From Pseudanabaena sp. BC1403 (lineage in GTDB: Bacteria; Cyanobacteriota; Cyanobacteriia; Pseudanabaenales; Pseudanabaenaceae): a stretch of 64,000 bases of DNA. The number at the start of each line of letters is the position of its first letter. The first letter of the stretch is position 1. The notes under the pieces were generated by a model that made no database searches, was not told where the DNA came from, and worked only from the letters and a program-made list of their open reading frames with translations. Location: assembly GCF_002914585.1 (NCBI RefSeq), contig NZ_PDDM01000013.1, positions 1 to 64,000 on the forward strand, written 5' to 3'. Position numbers and translations under genes: made by a program. Positions 3,011 to 39,816 of this stretch are shown here, one piece after another.

Positions 3011-3928
3011 ATGAAAACCGACAAGCTATTTTACCGAATCTTCTTAAGCCAACCCAGTTTGATTGCCGAATTGTTATCGGATATACCTGAAGATTGTCAA
3101 TTTGAATATAGCGCTCCCGTTGTCAAGGAAAAAGAAATTCGCTTGGATGGATTGCTAACACCAGTTAGTGAAAATCCTGATTTACCGATCATTTTTCTCG
3201 AAGCCCAAATGCAACGAGATCAAGAATTTTATGGTCGTTACTTTAGTGGCTTATTTGTTTATCTGCATCAATATAAAATCACAAGACTTTGGCGAGGACT
3301 TCTGATCTTGCGCGATCGCAGTCAAGATTTAGGCTCAGAAAGAACCTATCAAACCCTTCTCAACAAGCAAGTCCAAAGATTATATTTAGACGATTTACTA
3401 ACTCAAGAAAACCTAAGCCCCAATTTAGCCATCTTGAAACTAATAGTAACACCAGAAAACGAGGTCGTATCATTAGCTCAGAGCATTTTAGGCGGTATCG
3501 AGACAGCTGAAGAATTTCGACAAAAACTAGATTTGGTAGAAGCTATACTAGTAAATAAATTTCCTGAATTAAGCATAGAGGAAATCCAGAAAATGCTCGA
3601 TCTTAGAGAAGCTGACATCACTAAAACTCGTTTTTATCAGGAAGTCCTACAAATTGGTCGCCGCGAAGGTGAACAAATCGGTCGCCGCGAAGGTGAACAA
3701 ATCGGTCGCCGCGAAGGTGAACAATTTGGTTTGCAAATAGGAGAAGCCAATATGGTAATCCGCCAGTTGACTCGCCGTTGCGGTAGTCTCACGCCTCCTC
3801 AAATGCAAAAAGTGCGATCGCTTTCCTTACCGCAGTTAGAATCTCTCGGAGAAGCATTGTTGGATTTTAAAAATGTAGCTGATTTAGAAAATTGGTTTAA
3901 GTCGATTGTCGTTCAAAAACACCCCTAA
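3011..3928 (+). CDS. Rpn-family recombination-promoting nuclease / putative transposase
   Basis: This 305-residue protein has the N-terminal DUF2887-type PD-(D/E)XK nuclease region (LFYRIFLSQPS, then RLDGLL and IIFLEAQ as likely catalytic strands) and a C-terminal DUF4351-like tail (LTRRCGSLTPPQMQKVRSL...LGEALLDF). Between them are three identical 8-residue repeats IGRREGEQ. Such genes are common and variable in filamentous cyanobacteria and resemble Rpn proteins, which nick DNA and promote RecA-independent recombination. It follows the Nudix gene by 23 bp, but functional linkage is doubtful. Confidence 0.7.
   Translation: MKTDKLFYRIFLSQPSLIAELLSDIPEDCQFEYSAPVVKEKEIRLDGLLTPVSENPDLPIIFLEAQMQRDQEFYGRYFSGLFVYLHQYKITRLWRGLLILRDRSQDLGSERTYQTLLNKQVQRLYLDDLLTQENLSPNLAILKLIVTPENEVVSLAQSILGGIETAEEFRQKLDLVEAILVNKFPELSIEEIQKMLDLREADITKTRFYQEVLQIGRREGEQIGRREGEQIGRREGEQFGLQIGEANMVIRQLTRRCGSLTPPQMQKVRSLSLPQLESLGEALLDFKNVADLENWFKSIVVQKHP
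3653..3724 (+). repeat. Three tandem 24-bp coding repeats
   Basis: Three consecutive 24-bp units encode IGRREGEQ each time and differ only at the third base of the first codon (ATT in the first unit, ATC in the others). A fourth degenerate unit starts IGL/FGLQIGE. They lie in the linker of the Rpn-type gene and could expand or contract without shifting the frame. Confidence 0.85.
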
Positions 3929-5861: not shown

Positions 5862-6558
5862 ATTTGCCTTGCAAGGATTTTAGCTCTCGCAGAATTACCA
5901 TCAAACCTTTGTTTTGGTGATCAATTTGTTCTGAAATTTTTTCCATGCGTTGATTCAGGGATTTGATCGCGTTGTCTTGATGCTCGATTCGAGTATTTAA
6001 CTCGATAAACCGCGCCACAACTTCGCGCTGAATCAAGTTCTCTATCCCTTGTACTAGCAAAGTCTCAGTCGCGGTCAGGCGATTGACGATCATTTGTAGA
6101 CTAGGCTCTTCAGCACGAGGCATCTCTTTAGGCACAGTAGATACAGGTGCAGTACGAGAAGTTGCCGCAGAACTTGTTTGTTGAGCAGTCTCAGGAGTCA
6201 AAAAGTTCTGAATGCGGGCAACTAATACATCCGCTTCAAAGGGCTTTTCGAGGAAATCAAACTCAGTGAACGGTTCAGGTACATGCTCGGTGACTTGCTC
6301 TTTGAGTCCCGAAATCATGATTACAGGGACTTTTTGTAATCCTTCAACACGACGGATTGCCTGTAAGGTTTGATAGCCATTGTATTTGGGCATCACAAAA
6401 TCGAGCAAAATTAGGTCAGGAAAGGCTCGGCGAGCAGCATCTAAACCTGATTTGCCATCACTTGCTTCTAAGACATCATATTTGCCCGACAAAATGCTTT
6501 TAACCATTTTGCGGATCATGATGCTGTCGTCAATTACCAGTACTTTCTTTGCAGTCAT
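5860..6558 (-). CDS. Response regulator, REC domain with C-terminal coiled coil
   Basis: Residues 1-125 form a CheY-like receiver: KKVLVIDDS provides the acidic pair, LILLDFVMP the phospho-acceptor Asp, and FDFLEKPFE the conserved lysine. After a Ser/Thr/Ala-rich linker, the region from about 150 to 232 is charged and heptad-like (IEHQDNAIKSLNQRMEKISEQ), predicting a coiled coil. There is no DNA-binding domain, so output is probably by protein contact. It stands alone between cruF and rpoZ, with its own divergent promoter region. The cognate kinase is not adjacent. Confidence 0.8.
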   Translation of the reverse strand: MTAKKVLVIDDSIMIRKMVKSILSGKYDVLEASDGKSGLDAARRAFPDLILLDFVMPKYNGYQTLQAIRRVEGLQKVPVIMISGLKEQVTEHVPEPFTEFDFLEKPFEADVLVARIQNFLTPETAQQTSSAATSRTAPVSTVPKEMPRAEEPSLQMIVNRLTATETLLVQGIENLIQREVVARFIELNTRIEHQDNAIKSLNQRMEKISEQIDHQNKGLMVILRELKSLQGK

Positions 6559-9594: not shown

Positions 9595-9631
9595 AAATTT
9601 AGAATCTCCTCTTAGGATTGCAAATCAAATA

Positions 9632-9752
9632 AATTACTTTCTACTGTGACTCTAAGAAATCCCCCTCAATCCCCCTTAAAAAGGGGGAAGAATTAAATTC
9701 TCCCCCCTTTTTAAGGGGGGCTGGGGGGGATCTAGACAGTTCTTAAATGGTG
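9632..9752 (-). mobile_element. Family A miniature element, truncated at one end
   Basis: The sequence ATTACTTTCT, then ATCCCCCTCAATCCCCCTT, a GAATTAAATTC centre, GGGGGATCTAGACA and TTCTTAAATGGT matches the copies at 12069 and 38326. The left terminal repeat is missing, and the right one ends GTGTCC instead of TTTCTT. The strand given is arbitrary: this copy reads in the same sense as the 12069 copy. It contains no gene. It lies between the kinase and the two receivers. Confidence 0.7.
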
Positions 9753-9763
9753 TCCAAAAAACC

Positions 9764-9804
9764 AATAATTGTAGAGTCGAGCTTCGCTCGACTCTACAAT
9801 TATT
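9764..9804. terminator. Hairpin terminator of the histidine kinase gene
   Basis: AATAATTGTAGAGTCGAGC and its exact complement flank a TTC loop. It starts 2 bp after the kinase stop codon on the minus strand, so it probably separates the kinase transcript from the receiver genes. Confidence 0.75.
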
Positions 9805-9805
9805 C

Positions 9806-11950
9806 TTAGCTTATGCGATGGGGAATGGTAAATGAAAAGGTACTGCCTTCTGACAATACACTCTCGACCCATATCTTGCCACCATGTTGTTGGACAATAC
9901 TGCGACAGATCGCCAAACCTAAGCCTGTGCCTCCCATTTGACGTGAATCGGAAGCATCGACTTGGTGGAATCGTTCAAAAATACTTTCGAGATGATCGGC
10001 TGGAATACCACGCCCGCGATCGCATACTCGAAAGACAATCTCATTAGCAATTTGTTCGGCTTCAAGTTGCACCTGACTTTGAGGTGGCGAAAACTTAACG
10101 GCATTACTGAGCAAATTAACTAAGGTTTGGACGAGGCGATCGCGATCGGCAAAAACTTGCTGTGGCTGGACATTGCATAATATTTCGATCTGGCTTTCGG
10201 CTGCGATCGCCTGCATCGTTTCGATCGCCTGTTGACATAGCTCAAGCACATCATACCAATTGCGATCAAGTGTGACTTTGCTAGATTCTAAACGCTCTAA
10301 GTCCAGAATGTCATTAACCAGCCGCACTAATCTTTCGGTATCTGAGGAGGCAATATTGAGCATGTTTTGGGCAGTCTCAGGTCGATTAGCCAATACACCT
10401 GAAGAGATCAAGCCTAATGCGCCCCGAATCGAAGCTAATGGAGTTCTGAGTTCATGGCTAACAATGGAAATAAATTCACTTTTGATCCGATCAACTTTTA
10501 ATTTCTCAGTAATATCTTCGCCAATACTCAGGGTTCCAATAATTTCGTTTTCTTGATTACGCAGAATAGTATTGTTCCAAGAGATCATTCTTTCTTCGCC
10601 AGCCTTTGTGACTATGGCATTTTGATAATATTTCGGAAAGTCATTAATCAGTAGGCTAGAAAAACCCTCTCTGATCTCCGATTGATCGATCTGGGGTATA
10701 AATTGAGAGAACCAGTCTTTGCCGATTACTTCCTCCATGTCATAGCCTGTAAGCGCTAACAAAAATGGATTGATATATTCCACCTCTCCCCCACAGTTCA
10801 AACCCACTACGATTAAACTGACATTATCTAGTAAATATTGCCAACGACGGTTTGATTCTTGGAGAGCGATTTCATTCAGTTTGTTCTGCGTAATGTCATA
10901 GAAGATCGATAGTATCGTGGCAATTTCGCCATCTGAAGCATATTCAGGAATGAGATGAGCGCGATAATATCCCATGCTCTGATCTTCTGGAAATGGATAT
11001 TCGATTTCATATCGCTGGTCTTGACCAGTTTCGAGCAATCTGTGAGCAGCAGATTCAAGCATGGCTACATTCTTTTCAGGGAATCCCATTTCGCGCAGGG
11101 TTTTACCCAGAAACTCTTTAGCGGGGATACCTGTAGCTCTTTCTACGGCTGGATTAGCATAGAGATAACGCATTTGGTGATCGAGGCGAAGCGTCACGTT
11201 CGGCGAATTCTCGGCAAGGGCGATAAATTCCTGTTGGCGTTGATATAGCTCGGCAGTGCGCTCAACCACACGATTTTCTAAGTTTGCGTTAGCTAGCTGA
11301 AGTGCAAGTTCGACATTTTTGCGTTCCCCAATTTCTTTCTCTAAAGAGAGATTTGCAATCTGAAGATTGCGATAGAGTTCAGCTTGTTGAATCGCGATCG
11401 CTAACTGCACCGATAACTGCTGAAGTAAGCGAATATCTGACTCTTCCCAAATCCGTGGAGACTCACATTGATGGGCGATTAGCAACCCCCATAAAGTTTG
11501 AGTTTGGTTATCAGTTATGAGGATTGGTAAGACTAAATTTGCCCTTACCTGAAACTGTTCCATTAGGTTCAGATGGCATTCATGCAAGTTAGCCTTATAA
11601 ACATCTGAAGTCGAGAAAACTCGCCCTTCTCGATACATTCCACCGAGATTGCCTTGAAAACAGCACTCGTCAATGTGTTGATTTAGACAGGGTTTCCATG
11701 GTGAGAGAACTGACTCTGCGACAACAGTTCCAGTCATGTCAGGATTGAACTGATAAACAATGGAACGATCAGCATTTAAGAATGCACGTACTTCTTGGAC
11801 AATCGAGTTAGCAATATCTTCTATACTGAGATATTGCCGAATATGAAGCGCAATTTTAGCAATTAAAATTTCCTGCTGTTGCGATCGCCTCATTTTGCGA
11901 GTGAATTGAGAAATCGAGCTAGAGATCGGATTGGAAGATGAATCTGGCAT
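9806..11950 (-). CDS. Histidine kinase, cyanobacteriochrome-like GAF, two PAS, HisKA, HATPase
   Basis: This 714-residue sensor kinase has a GAF domain at about 30-195, a coiled coil, PAS at about 240-355, a second PAS at about 360-480, HisKA with SHELRTP near 495, and a HATPase domain with DRGRGIP and GGTGLGLAI to the end. The GAF carries C125-H126 in LHECHLNLME, the bilin-attachment position of cyanobacteriochromes, and ECCF at 95-98, close to the DXCF second-cysteine motif. It therefore probably binds a bilin and senses light. The ATG at 11950 is preferred over an upstream TTG. Two receivers downstream and the REC-wHTH-Hpt-REC regulator upstream are likely partners. There is no membrane helix. 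Confidence 0.85.
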   Translation of the reverse strand: MPDSSSNPISSSISQFTRKMRRSQQQEILIAKIALHIRQYLSIEDIANSIVQEVRAFLNADRSIVYQFNPDMTGTVVAESVLSPWKPCLNQHIDECCFQGNLGGMYREGRVFSTSDVYKANLHECHLNLMEQFQVRANLVLPILITDNQTQTLWGLLIAHQCESPRIWEESDIRLLQQLSVQLAIAIQQAELYRNLQIANLSLEKEIGERKNVELALQLANANLENRVVERTAELYQRQQEFIALAENSPNVTLRLDHQMRYLYANPAVERATGIPAKEFLGKTLREMGFPEKNVAMLESAAHRLLETGQDQRYEIEYPFPEDQSMGYYRAHLIPEYASDGEIATILSIFYDITQNKLNEIALQESNRRWQYLLDNVSLIVVGLNCGGEVEYINPFLLALTGYDMEEVIGKDWFSQFIPQIDQSEIREGFSSLLINDFPKYYQNAIVTKAGEERMISWNNTILRNQENEIIGTLSIGEDITEKLKVDRIKSEFISIVSHELRTPLASIRGALGLISSGVLANRPETAQNMLNIASSDTERLVRLVNDILDLERLESSKVTLDRNWYDVLELCQQAIETMQAIAAESQIEILCNVQPQQVFADRDRLVQTLVNLLSNAVKFSPPQSQVQLEAEQIANEIVFRVCDRGRGIPADHLESIFERFHQVDASDSRQMGGTGLGLAICRSIVQQHGGKIWVESVLSEGSTFSFTIPHRIS

Positions 11951-12068
11951 GATTTCGGGCAATATTGAGAAAATACTTTATTTGCACAACTTGAGACAAT
12001 AAGTATATTTAGCATAGCCTATAAAAATGAAGACAATCTGAAGGAATCAAGTCGATGTGGGGATATTT

Positions 12069-12301
12069 AGAAACCATTTAAGAATTACTTTCTGCGGTCA
12101 AAAGCTCCAAGAGATCCCCCTCAATCCCCCTTAAAAAGGTGGAGGAATTAAATTCTCCCCCTTTTTAAGGGTCTAGCTCAATTCTTACAGCAATTACCGA
12201 TCAAACGAACCACAAGAAAAAATTTAAAAGCGTTGCTTCGCAACGCTTTTAAATTTTTTCTTGGTTTGGGTTTAAGCGCAAAGCGCAGTAAATGGTTTCT
12301 T
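12069..12301 (-). mobile_element. Family A miniature element, interrupted by family B
   Basis: The element opens AGAAACCATTTAAGAATTAC and closes AAATGGTTTCTTA at 12289-12301, the inverted form of the same repeat. Without the 101-bp insert and its TA duplication it is about 130 bp. It carries the same CCCCCTT / AAGGG core as the other copies, with a small internal deletion. Its outer TTA at 12300-12302 is the stop codon of the minus-strand response regulator. The strand shown is arbitrary. Confidence 0.75.
12188..12288 (-). mobile_element. Family B miniature element (101 bp) with TA target duplication
   Basis: The insert begins CAGCAATTACCGATC and ends AAGCGCAG, and both sides are TA (12186-12187 and 12289-12290). 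Removing the insert and one TA restores the family A terminal repeat TTCTTAAATGG. The reverse complement matches the 101-bp copy at 39673-39773 at both ends, but the central hairpins differ. Here the hairpin CAAGAAAAAATTTAAAAGC (12213-12263) has a TTC loop. Confidence 0.8.
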
Positions 12302-13886
12302 AACCATAATGGTGTGTATGCCCATTCCCATCTGCCGCCTGCCTCAGACGACTACGCTCTAAACGGCTGAGAATGCGTGTATACAAATCTTCCTCCACAA
12401 TTGGCTTGCTGAGATAATCATCTGCTCCAGCAACAAACAATTGACGAATTGTCTCGCGATCGTGATGAGCCGACAAAAACACAATTGGTAAATCTTTCCA
12501 TAGCGAAGATGTTCGCATGGATTGACACAAATCCATACCGTTACAGTCTGGCATGATCAAATCCAAAATCAGCAGGTCAGGAGAAGTGGATTCCAAAACC
12601 TGCCAAAACTTCTGCGGATCTTGCAAAGTGATCACCTCAAGATTCCAATTTTCCAGTAAAGCCCGCAAAATCGTCAGAATATGCGGATCGTCATCGACAA
12701 TCATTACTTTGGAGAGATCGCCTTGCTGTTGTTGTGGGTGATGAGATTGGGGCTGAGATGTAGAAATGCTAGGACTTACAGTCTTAAGTGGGTCACAAGT
12801 ACTTGCTTCTAAATCAGTAATTAATTGCTGCAACATCGGCGGATCAGTCTGCACTAAAGCAAAATCACTTTTGAGTTTCTGCTCGATCTGAAATGCGATC
12901 GCCGATCCTTCTGGAAAACCTAAAGAACCCATCGATCCAATGAGCCGATGCGCCTCCATATATCCGTCATAGCGTAAATCTTCGTCCAAGTTGCCCTCAT
13001 CTAAAGCGATCGCTACTCGACGTAAAAGCGCGATCGACTCTGGCAAAATTGCGATTAACTTCTTAGTCACAATCGCAATTACCTCCAGCACTCGCACCTT
13101 ATCTATCTGCGATGGGCTTTCTTCAGACAAAGGATTTGTGACTACAGGCTGAACATCAGGTATCTCCGCAGCTTGAAAAGGCTCAGGTTTGAGGCGATAT
13201 CCCAATCCATATAATGTCTCAATCGGATCTATAGGCAGTCCCGCCGCCTTCAGCTTTTGACGTAATCCCTTAATATGTGTTGTCACCGCCTCCTCACTGG
13301 GAAACTCTCCCGCCGACCACACCTGATCGATCAAAGCACTACGGCTAAATACTCGTTGGGGATGTCTGAGAAACAACTCTAATAGCCGATATTCCTTTTG
13401 GGTTAAGCGGAAAGGTTTCAGGTTATAACTAAATGTATTTGTTCTAATATCCAGATGAAGCCGCTCCCACGTTAATTCCTGAATGAGATTATCGCGATCG
13501 CTATAGCGCCTTAATAACGCCCGAATCCTTGCCAATAATTCCTGAAAGTTATAGGGCTTCACCACATAGTCATCCGCACCTGCCTCTAAACCCATCACGC
13601 GATCGTTGGTACTATCCTTTGCGGTTAGCAATAGCACGGGGGTATTGTAACCAGCAGCACGAAGCTTGGTACATAGTCCAATACCATCACTATCAGGCAA
13701 CATAACATCGAGAATGATCAAATCGTAGGTATAGGTTTCGATGTATTGCCACGCAGTCTTAGCATTGAGAGCAGAATCAATTGTGTAATGCGACTCTGCT
13801 AGTAGCTGCGAAAGTAGCTCCGTAGAATGTAGATCGTCTTCAACTAGTAAAATCTTCAAAACATCTTTTACCTTATTGTGAAACAC
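12300..13886 (-). CDS. REC-wHTH-Hpt-REC response regulator
   Basis: The 528-residue product contains an N-terminal receiver (ILLVEDD, phospho-acceptor in LIILDVMLPDSDG), an OmpR-type winged helix at about 135-235, an Hpt-like helical domain with its histidine in EAHRLIGSMGSLG near 315, and a second receiver at about 395-515 (VMIVDDDP, LLILDLIMPDCNG, YLSKPI). It can therefore bind DNA, carry phosphate on His and be phosphorylated at both ends. The start is GTG at 13886 or TTG at 13859. Its stop codon lies in the terminal repeat of the family A element. The kinase gene follows downstream on the same strand, suggesting one pathway. Confidence 0.85.
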   Translation of the reverse strand: MFHNKVKDVLKILLVEDDLHSTELLSQLLAESHYTIDSALNAKTAWQYIETYTYDLIILDVMLPDSDGIGLCTKLRAAGYNTPVLLLTAKDSTNDRVMGLEAGADDYVVKPYNFQELLARIRALLRRYSDRDNLIQELTWERLHLDIRTNTFSYNLKPFRLTQKEYRLLELFLRHPQRVFSRSALIDQVWSAGEFPSEEAVTTHIKGLRQKLKAAGLPIDPIETLYGLGYRLKPEPFQAAEIPDVQPVVTNPLSEESPSQIDKVRVLEVIAIVTKKLIAILPESIALLRRVAIALDEGNLDEDLRYDGYMEAHRLIGSMGSLGFPEGSAIAFQIEQKLKSDFALVQTDPPMLQQLITDLEASTCDPLKTVSPSISTSQPQSHHPQQQQGDLSKVMIVDDDPHILTILRALLENWNLEVITLQDPQKFWQVLESTSPDLLILDLIMPDCNGMDLCQSMRTSSLWKDLPIVFLSAHHDRETIRQLFVAGADDYLSKPIVEEDLYTRILSRLERSRLRQAADGNGHTHHYG

Positions 13887-38325: not shown

Positions 38326-38469
38326 AAGAAACCATTTAAGAATTGTCTAGATCCCCCCCAGCCCCCCTTAAAAAGGGGGGAGAATTAAATTCTTCCCCCT
38401 TTTTAAGGGGGATTGAGGGGGATCTCTTAAAGCTTTTGACCGCAGAAAGTACTTCTTAAATGGTTTCTT
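38326..38469 (+). mobile_element. Family A miniature element, full length (144 bp)
   Basis: The termini are AAGAAACCATTTAAGAA at 38326 and its exact inverse TTCTTAAATGGTTTCTT at 38453-38469. The core repeats GATCCCCCC...CCCTTAAAAAGGGGG and the mirrored arm. There is no open frame, so a transposase must come from elsewhere. It lies between pntA and the alpha2 gene, and its right edge overlaps the stop codon of pntA. It is opposite in orientation to the copies at 9632 and 12069. Confidence 0.8.
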
Positions 38470-39613: not shown

Positions 39614-39672
39614 TCATGCACCTTATTCAATTATCTTCACTTACCGAAATATATGATCGGGCAACCCAGATA

Positions 39673-39773
39673 CAGCGCTTTGCACTTAAACCCGAACCAA
39701 GCAAATTTCTATAAGCGTCGCAAAGTAACACTTATAGAAATTTGCTTGTGGCTCTTTCGATCATAAATTGCTG
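39673..39773 (+). mobile_element. Family B miniature element (101 bp)
   Basis: Flanked by TA at 39671-39672 and 39774-39775, it begins CAGCGCTTTGCACTTAAACC and ends CATAAATTGCTG. Reverse-complemented it matches the 12188 copy at both ends and has the same length. Its central hairpin CAAGCAAATTTCTATAAG (39698-39748) has a different sequence from the other copy, so the family keeps ends but varies its middle. Confidence 0.75.
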
Positions 39774-39816
39774 TAAGTAGAGACAATTCATGAGTTGTCC
39801 TTACTTACAGCAATTT
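39765..39816. repeat. Second inverted repeat built on family B ends
   Basis: AAATTGCTGTAAGTA (39765-39779) is inverted at 39802-39816. The left arm contains the family B end and the TA, and an inner near-palindrome GACAATTCATGAGTTGTC follows. This could be two element ends fused tip to tip after excision or a second, shorter element. The remaining part of 39817-39957 shows nothing recognised. Confidence 0.5.

Follow-up and report, generated by a model that had tools for sequence, protein, structure and literature searches.

A nested pair of miniature elements with IS5-type and IS630-type ends in Pseudanabaena sp. BC1403

Introduction

How does one short repeat come to lie inside the terminal repeat of another, in what order did the two arrive, and which transposases carried them there? 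These questions are raised by a locus in a 64,000-nucleotide stretch of Pseudanabaena sp. BC1403 (contig NZ_PDDM01000013.1, positions 1 to 64,000; hereafter the window), part of a 5.51-Mb draft genome of 88 contigs. The original prediction, made from the letters alone, had seen here a copy of one family of small repeats (family B) inserted into a copy of another (family A), and had taken B for a miniature inverted-repeat transposable element (MITE) mobilised by an IS630-type transposase and more recently active at this site than A. MITEs with IS630-type and with IS5-type ends are a known class. We consider it very probable that the nest arose by two successive insertions of gene-less miniature transposons, A and then B, with helper elements of IS5 type and IS630 type, respectively. 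The case is built on the observed structure of the nest, the copy families, the target duplications, the related full-length elements and the empty sites of other B copies; from these we infer which transposase would have moved A and which B.

Structure of the nest

The junctions of the nest can be read directly as TTCT-TA-[CAGCAATTACC...GCGCAG]-TA-AATGGTTTC. Family B occupies positions 12188-12288 (plus strand), a 101-bp hairpin framed by TA at 12186-12187 and 12289-12290 and splitting the right terminal repeat of A, exactly as had been predicted. When its flanks are rejoined with a single TA they give TTCTTAAATGG, the string present at 38453-38463 in an intact A copy, which confirms that removal of B and one TA restores uninterrupted family A sequence. 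The second 101-bp B copy that had been proposed is likewise there, at 39673-39773 on the minus strand, flanked by TA (39671-39672 and 39774-39775); it lies in the opposite orientation to the first and is 78% identical to it over 99 aligned bases. The interrupted A copy spans 12070-12299 (plus strand) and has the terminal repeats GAAACCATTTAAGAA and TTCTTAAATGGTTTC. The intact copy that serves as its uninterrupted reference lies at 38328-38467 (plus strand), with unequal 3-bp flanks (CAA on one side and TTA on the other), and a third, truncated copy in the window occupies 9632-9754 on the minus strand.

The A copy of the nest has a 3-bp target duplication of its own that had escaped the original prediction. 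Direct reading places TTA at 12067-12069 and again at 12300-12302, in agreement with the TNA rule of the family described below. Read on the minus strand, the right-hand TTA serves as the stop codon (TAA) of a response-regulator gene (12300-13886, minus strand) encoding two receiver-domain stretches and a winged-helix output domain; A thus inserted at the stop codon, its duplication preserving the stop. On the other side of A lies the gene of a sensor histidine kinase with GAF and PAS domains (9806-11962).

The history that fits these junctions would begin with A, bearing IS5-type ends, entering the TTA of the response-regulator stop codon, which the 3-bp duplication would have retained. B, bearing IS630/Tc1-mariner-type ends, would later have entered a TA in the right terminal repeat of A and duplicated it. 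Both elements would have been moved in trans by transposases recognising their ends, A by an IS5-family enzyme with a TNA target and B by an IS630-family enzyme with a TA target. The nest is thus a tidy, rather unremarkable trace of two invasions, one after the other, and it dates them relative to each other. A and B look like elements unrelated to each other, both of them gene-less relatives of well-known bacterial insertion elements.

Family B and its IS630-type relative

A search of the genome showed that A and B are both multi-copy families. A degenerate pattern of the B ends occurs 162 times compared with 5 in the control, and the gene-less 101-bp hairpin itself gave at least 52 match rows, 40 of 104 candidates having been scored. 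B matches were found in all 26 genomes of the genus that were searched. Two recognisable ends were present in 20 of the 28 copies examined in the strain's own genome; TA adjoins both ends in 13 of these 20 and one end in the other 7.

A candidate partner announces itself at the edges of the assembly. Contigs C8 and C32 share their first 87 bases, which finish with a B-like end and TA, and then diverge, the mark of a longer repeated element; contig C52 starts with the opposite end of the same element. Congeners carry such an element whole. It is about 1.06 kb long, has TA-flanked CAGCAAATTCCGATCAAACC ends and contains two overlapping frames with an A-run at the overlap, which encode HTH_Tnp_IS630 (PF01710) and DDE_3 (PF13358) domains and match NF033545 barely above its cut-off (102.8 vs 100 bits). 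The best full-length named relatives of its transposase, at 91% identity, come from Pseudanabaena sp. UBA1465 and UWO311, and the plasmids best matched by A and B are also those of Pseudanabaena. In the strain's own genome the interior of the element was not seen among all but the 20 smallest contigs, while its ends are present at the starts of C8, C32 and C52.

Comparison with the element end on contig C8 shows agreement at 24 of 29 bases for the left end of B (reached by 0 of 20,000 shuffles) and at 18 of 29 for the right end (reached by 1 of 20,000). The left and right ends of B are not the same, and both B and the IS630-family element begin with CAG adjoining TA. The search for an IS630 element with matching termini thus turned up one with related ends. 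Since the ends are related rather than identical, the actual helper of B may be a sister element of this one. The mobilisation of B by an IS630-type enzyme, as originally proposed, is nevertheless supported by the TA duplication, the related IS630 ends, the occurrence of such ends at contig breaks and the single-TA empty sites described below, and B is probably best seen as an IS630-type MITE.

Some groups of the IS5 family also duplicate TA, and several transposase families are represented in this genome. B could accordingly be a MITE of another TA-duplicating type, its likeness to IS630 ends being secondary, and the modest agreement of its right end would fit that alternative. It is hard to reconcile with the left end, whose agreement no shuffle equalled, with the CAG next to TA that starts both kinds of element, or with the assignment of the full element to IS630 by two domain libraries, and we judge it improbable. 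An IS630-type origin of B remains the preferred reading. Like IS630/Tc1-mariner elements and their MITEs, B has a duplicated TA target and CAG-type ends, and here too the gene-less copies outnumber the visible full ones; it is unlike them in that its ends differ from each other and from those of the IS630 element found.

Two other candidates for the partner of B did not hold. Copies of a second IS630 type at the ends of contigs C44, C9 and C14 (L063, L064 and L065) were rejected for their different terminus. This second type also breaks the assembly, and a short B-like hairpin or end lies beside the copy on C44 only, being absent beside those on C9 and C14. The start of the window, where an element with the ends of B had been suspected, contains no recognisable one: ends of A or B (at most 3 mismatches) first appear at 5929 or beyond, three small plus-strand open reading frames in 1-500 matched no Pfam family, and the frame at 3011-3928 belongs to DUF2887/DUF4351.

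Empty and filled sites in related genomes

Comparison with related strains bears directly on the mobility of B. The joined flanks of 11 B copies from the strain's own genome (two blocks being shortened) were searched in 25 genomes of the genus, its own included, and the 5 loci with junction-spanning matches, among the matches listed, were aligned to the relatives for which the locus was returned. The anticipated empty sites with a single TA were found at four B loci other than the nest. At L023, the relative G030 reads CTTGATCTTAAGG where the strain's own genome reads CTTGATTT-TA-[B]-TA-AGG. At L026, one TA replaces TA-B-TA in all six relatives aligned, with flanks less alike near the site; a seventh among the matches listed, G010, is outside the alignment. 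At L011, the G010 sequence contains a single TA and is as long as a perfect empty site would be; B is missing from G008 as well, where the sequence is one T short. G008 also has a single TA at L014, the flank there differing in addition by half a hairpin.

The fifth locus, L015, is of another kind. A 15-bp remnant of B persists there in G010 and G029 (L376 and L377), as would fit a deletion between the GCGCT repeats of the two ends of B, and these two cases thus appear to be losses of B, not absences. Filled sites occur in relatives too, for example at L018 and L026 in G008, with 101 bp between the flanks. Empty and filled sites together show that some species have B insertions that others lack, and such sites are usable as insertion markers. 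At the nest itself, relatives do have an ortholog of the response-regulator gene, but alignment of the left flank does not extend up to the site; the empty state of this locus is presumed through the other copies of A.

Family A and its IS5-type relative

Family A has the features by which MITEs are recognised: its members are short (about 140 bp), gene-less, present in many copies and bounded by terminal inverted repeats. Matches to its 15-bp end, with at most 1 mismatch allowed, number 92 in the genome and 4 in the reversed-pattern control. The 30 copies retrieved, from a search that scored 40 of 98 candidates, are all 91-100% identical to the copy at 38328 over the matched part. The end pattern is present in all 26 genus genomes, with numbers that range from 2 matches, near the control level, to 92.

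Target duplication is a family-wide rule. Equal 3-bp flanks adjoin 32 of the 38 distinct two-ended copies, and TNA stands on both sides in 35, including all 32 with equal flanks, compared with a permuted mean of 16.8 equal pairs and no permutation in 10,000 with as many. An exact duplication is absent from the other 6 copies, the one at 38328 among them.

A full-length relative of A was identified in a congener, G029. This 874-bp element has the ends GAAAGCATTTAAGAATT and GAAAGCATTTAAGAATG and encodes an IS5-family transposase with PF13340, PF01609 and NF033580 above cut-off (219 bits for NF033580, vs a cut-off of 110), and its end matches that of A at 16 of 17 bases. In the one copy that was read the flanks are unequal (TTA left, TAA right). 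Classification of 6 of 8 PF01609-type hits in the strain's own genome (all but the 20 smallest contigs being covered) revealed no IS5 frame; the PF01609-type frames there, set aside as partners of A, are assigned to IS4 or IS1634, receive a class only below cut-off or receive none. Compared with the IS1031-like, TNA-target group of the IS5 family and its MITEs, A is alike in its 3-bp TNA duplication and in 16 of 17 end bases, and differs by a core formed of a C-run/G-run hairpin that is found elsewhere within different ends.

Mobile elements or functional hairpins

Single-stranded B DNA is predicted to fold as a hairpin of -31.9 kcal/mol (z -7.5; 0 of 200 shuffles as good), strong folding is predicted for A as well, and A adjoins a stop codon. 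Such features would suit immobile hairpins retained behind the response-regulator gene as a terminator or an RNA-processing site. Against this stand the target duplications, the very uniform A copies at unrelated places in the genome, the presence or absence of B between species and the lack of any Rfam match in 9600-12400, which together make it distinctly unlikely that the hairpins owe their place to such a function rather than to transposition; a regulatory side effect of the inserted elements on their neighbours is possible. That the pattern reflects repeat recombination or an assembly error, as might be feared in a draft of 88 contigs several of which begin within such repeats, is scarcely credible when the junction gives back the family sequence exactly, both duplications obey family-wide rules and independent assemblies have other B sites in the empty or the filled state.

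Insertion of B into A, which stands as the preferred account, also settles their order at this site, and the claim that B is the more recent here follows from the nesting. Across the genome, pairwise divergence averages 4.8% for A (n=30) and 20.3% for B (n=19), which points to A as the more recently amplified family; these samples consist of the copies most like the queries, and true divergences are therefore probably higher.

Relation to known cyanobacterial repeats

The A and B families are newly seen members of known MITE classes. In the cyanobacterium Anabaena sp. strain 90, 147 MITEs are reported, mostly intergenic and with no evident similarity to the ends of the insertion sequences of that genome (PMC3542288). 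The two cases are alike in that a cyanobacterial genome harbours many short gene-less hairpin elements, and differ in that B can here be linked to an IS630-type partner and A to an IS5-type relative. A literature search for Pseudanabaena together with MITE found no publication, subscription literature being mostly outside its reach, and four core motifs led to just two papers, both unrelated; as sequences are rarely printed, such absence is weak evidence of novelty. A phage collection searched with A and B gave no match. With two abundant repeat families of Pseudanabaena tied to transposase families, intergenic repeats and contig breaks in these genomes become annotatable.

Insertions into the hairpin core of A

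Copies of A are themselves hosts to further elements. A third family, C, with ends CTACNGTGTACACACAAGTC, lies at one place in the core of A, give or take a base, in L066, L067, L068, L084 and L088, where the insert is nearly identical and 174-175 bp long; L069 contains a different insert of 155 bp. At the end of contig C37, a longer element begins at the same place in the core and carries a frame for an IS4-family transposase (NF033590 above cut-off). This place is the centre of CCCCCC-TTAAAAA-GGGGGG. Family C and its IS4-type relative enter the centres of C-run/G-run palindromes, that of the core of A included; the loci with this pattern also comprise L082 and, in G033, L356-L375.

This preference was examined in 37 family C insertions from several genomes of the genus. 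A repeat of 8-11 bp with at most 1 mismatch flanks 24 of them, and the other 13, whose flanks differ by more than one base, were left out of the pairing count. At least 7 of 8 flanking bases pair in 20 of the 24 sites, vs 3.4% of 1,776 shifted positions, a score that mixes hairpin shape with the sequence CCCC-about-10-GGGG and cannot tell them apart. Of the bases beside the repeat, the nearest four on the left are mostly C and those on the right mostly G. With another score, applied to all 37 sites, the excess is smaller (mean 7.5 of 10 vs 5.0 at 1,242 shifted positions).

Precedent for such targeting is provided by ISRm22, an IS4-family element which is reported to insert into REP palindromes (PMC1525189). 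Family C and its IS4-type relative likewise enter palindrome centres; their targets differ from those given for ISRm22 in being varied hairpins with CCCC-about-10-GGGG, several of them inside other mobile elements. Two further nests involve A. At L071 (C1:500752-501200), a fourth element, D, with ends TAGGACTTACGCA and the repeat TAATT, lies in the right end of an A copy, and at L070 (C3:64800-65300) an A copy is nested in an older A.

The core of A in other cyanobacteria

The core of A also occurs without the ends of A, on plasmids of Nostoc, Kovacikia, Leptolyngbya, Oscillatoria and Allocoleopsis. A query with a Nostoc core matched 22 of 72,556 plasmid records, each of which bears a cyanobacterial genus name. 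Nineteen core loci were read (L320-L325 and L406-L418), from 6 of the 10 records of the first search and 13 of the 22 of the Nostoc-core search. Flanking inverted repeats of at least 12/14 were found at 7 of the 19 loci (5 of 95 shuffled controls) and of at least 13/14 at 5 (0 of 95); the remaining 12 loci showed none of at least 12/14. When flanks were paired across loci, 12 was reached in 18 of 141 pairs and 13 in 10 of 141, and we read most of these 10 as joining loci with a common end family. A slightly different span gives 8 loci with flanking repeats, including a doubtful pair at L413.

Several types of ends can be distinguished among the five loci that reach 13/14. Ends of the GATGTTTGAAAAGT type are found in L320 and L407 and, extended outward, are followed by equal TTA or TAA flanks. 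Those of L323 are of the GGCGTGTTTTCAAA type, those of L410 are of the GACTTACGC type and resemble the ends of element D, and the type in L417 is uncertain. The core would thus occur in at least three kinds of ends besides those of A, or would have arisen more than once. It is tempting to view A as one of a set of modular cyanobacterial miniature transposons, in which a core of about 80 bp crosses genera within different ends and the centre of this core, and of similar hairpins, is the preferred target of IS4-type elements; we offer this tentatively, as somewhat less likely to be true than false. Against it weigh the 12 loci without flanking repeats, the scores reached by flanks paired across loci and the smaller excess of pairing when all 37 family C sites are counted. 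Were it true, nesting would be built into the system, every new copy of the mobile hairpin offering further elements a place to insert. The occurrence of the core in several types of ends, along with IS4-type targeting of hairpin centres, would make it a testable question whether bacterial hairpin repeats spread by borrowing the ends of different insertion-sequence families.

A last observation concerns L414 in Anabaena cylindrica PCC 7122 and L416 in Nostoc sp. UHCC 0870, where half of the core adjoins nearly the same sequence. An annotated IS4-family transposase is encoded close by at L416 and a transposase DNA-binding protein at L414, and the arrangement looks like a further IS4 insertion at the centre of the core.
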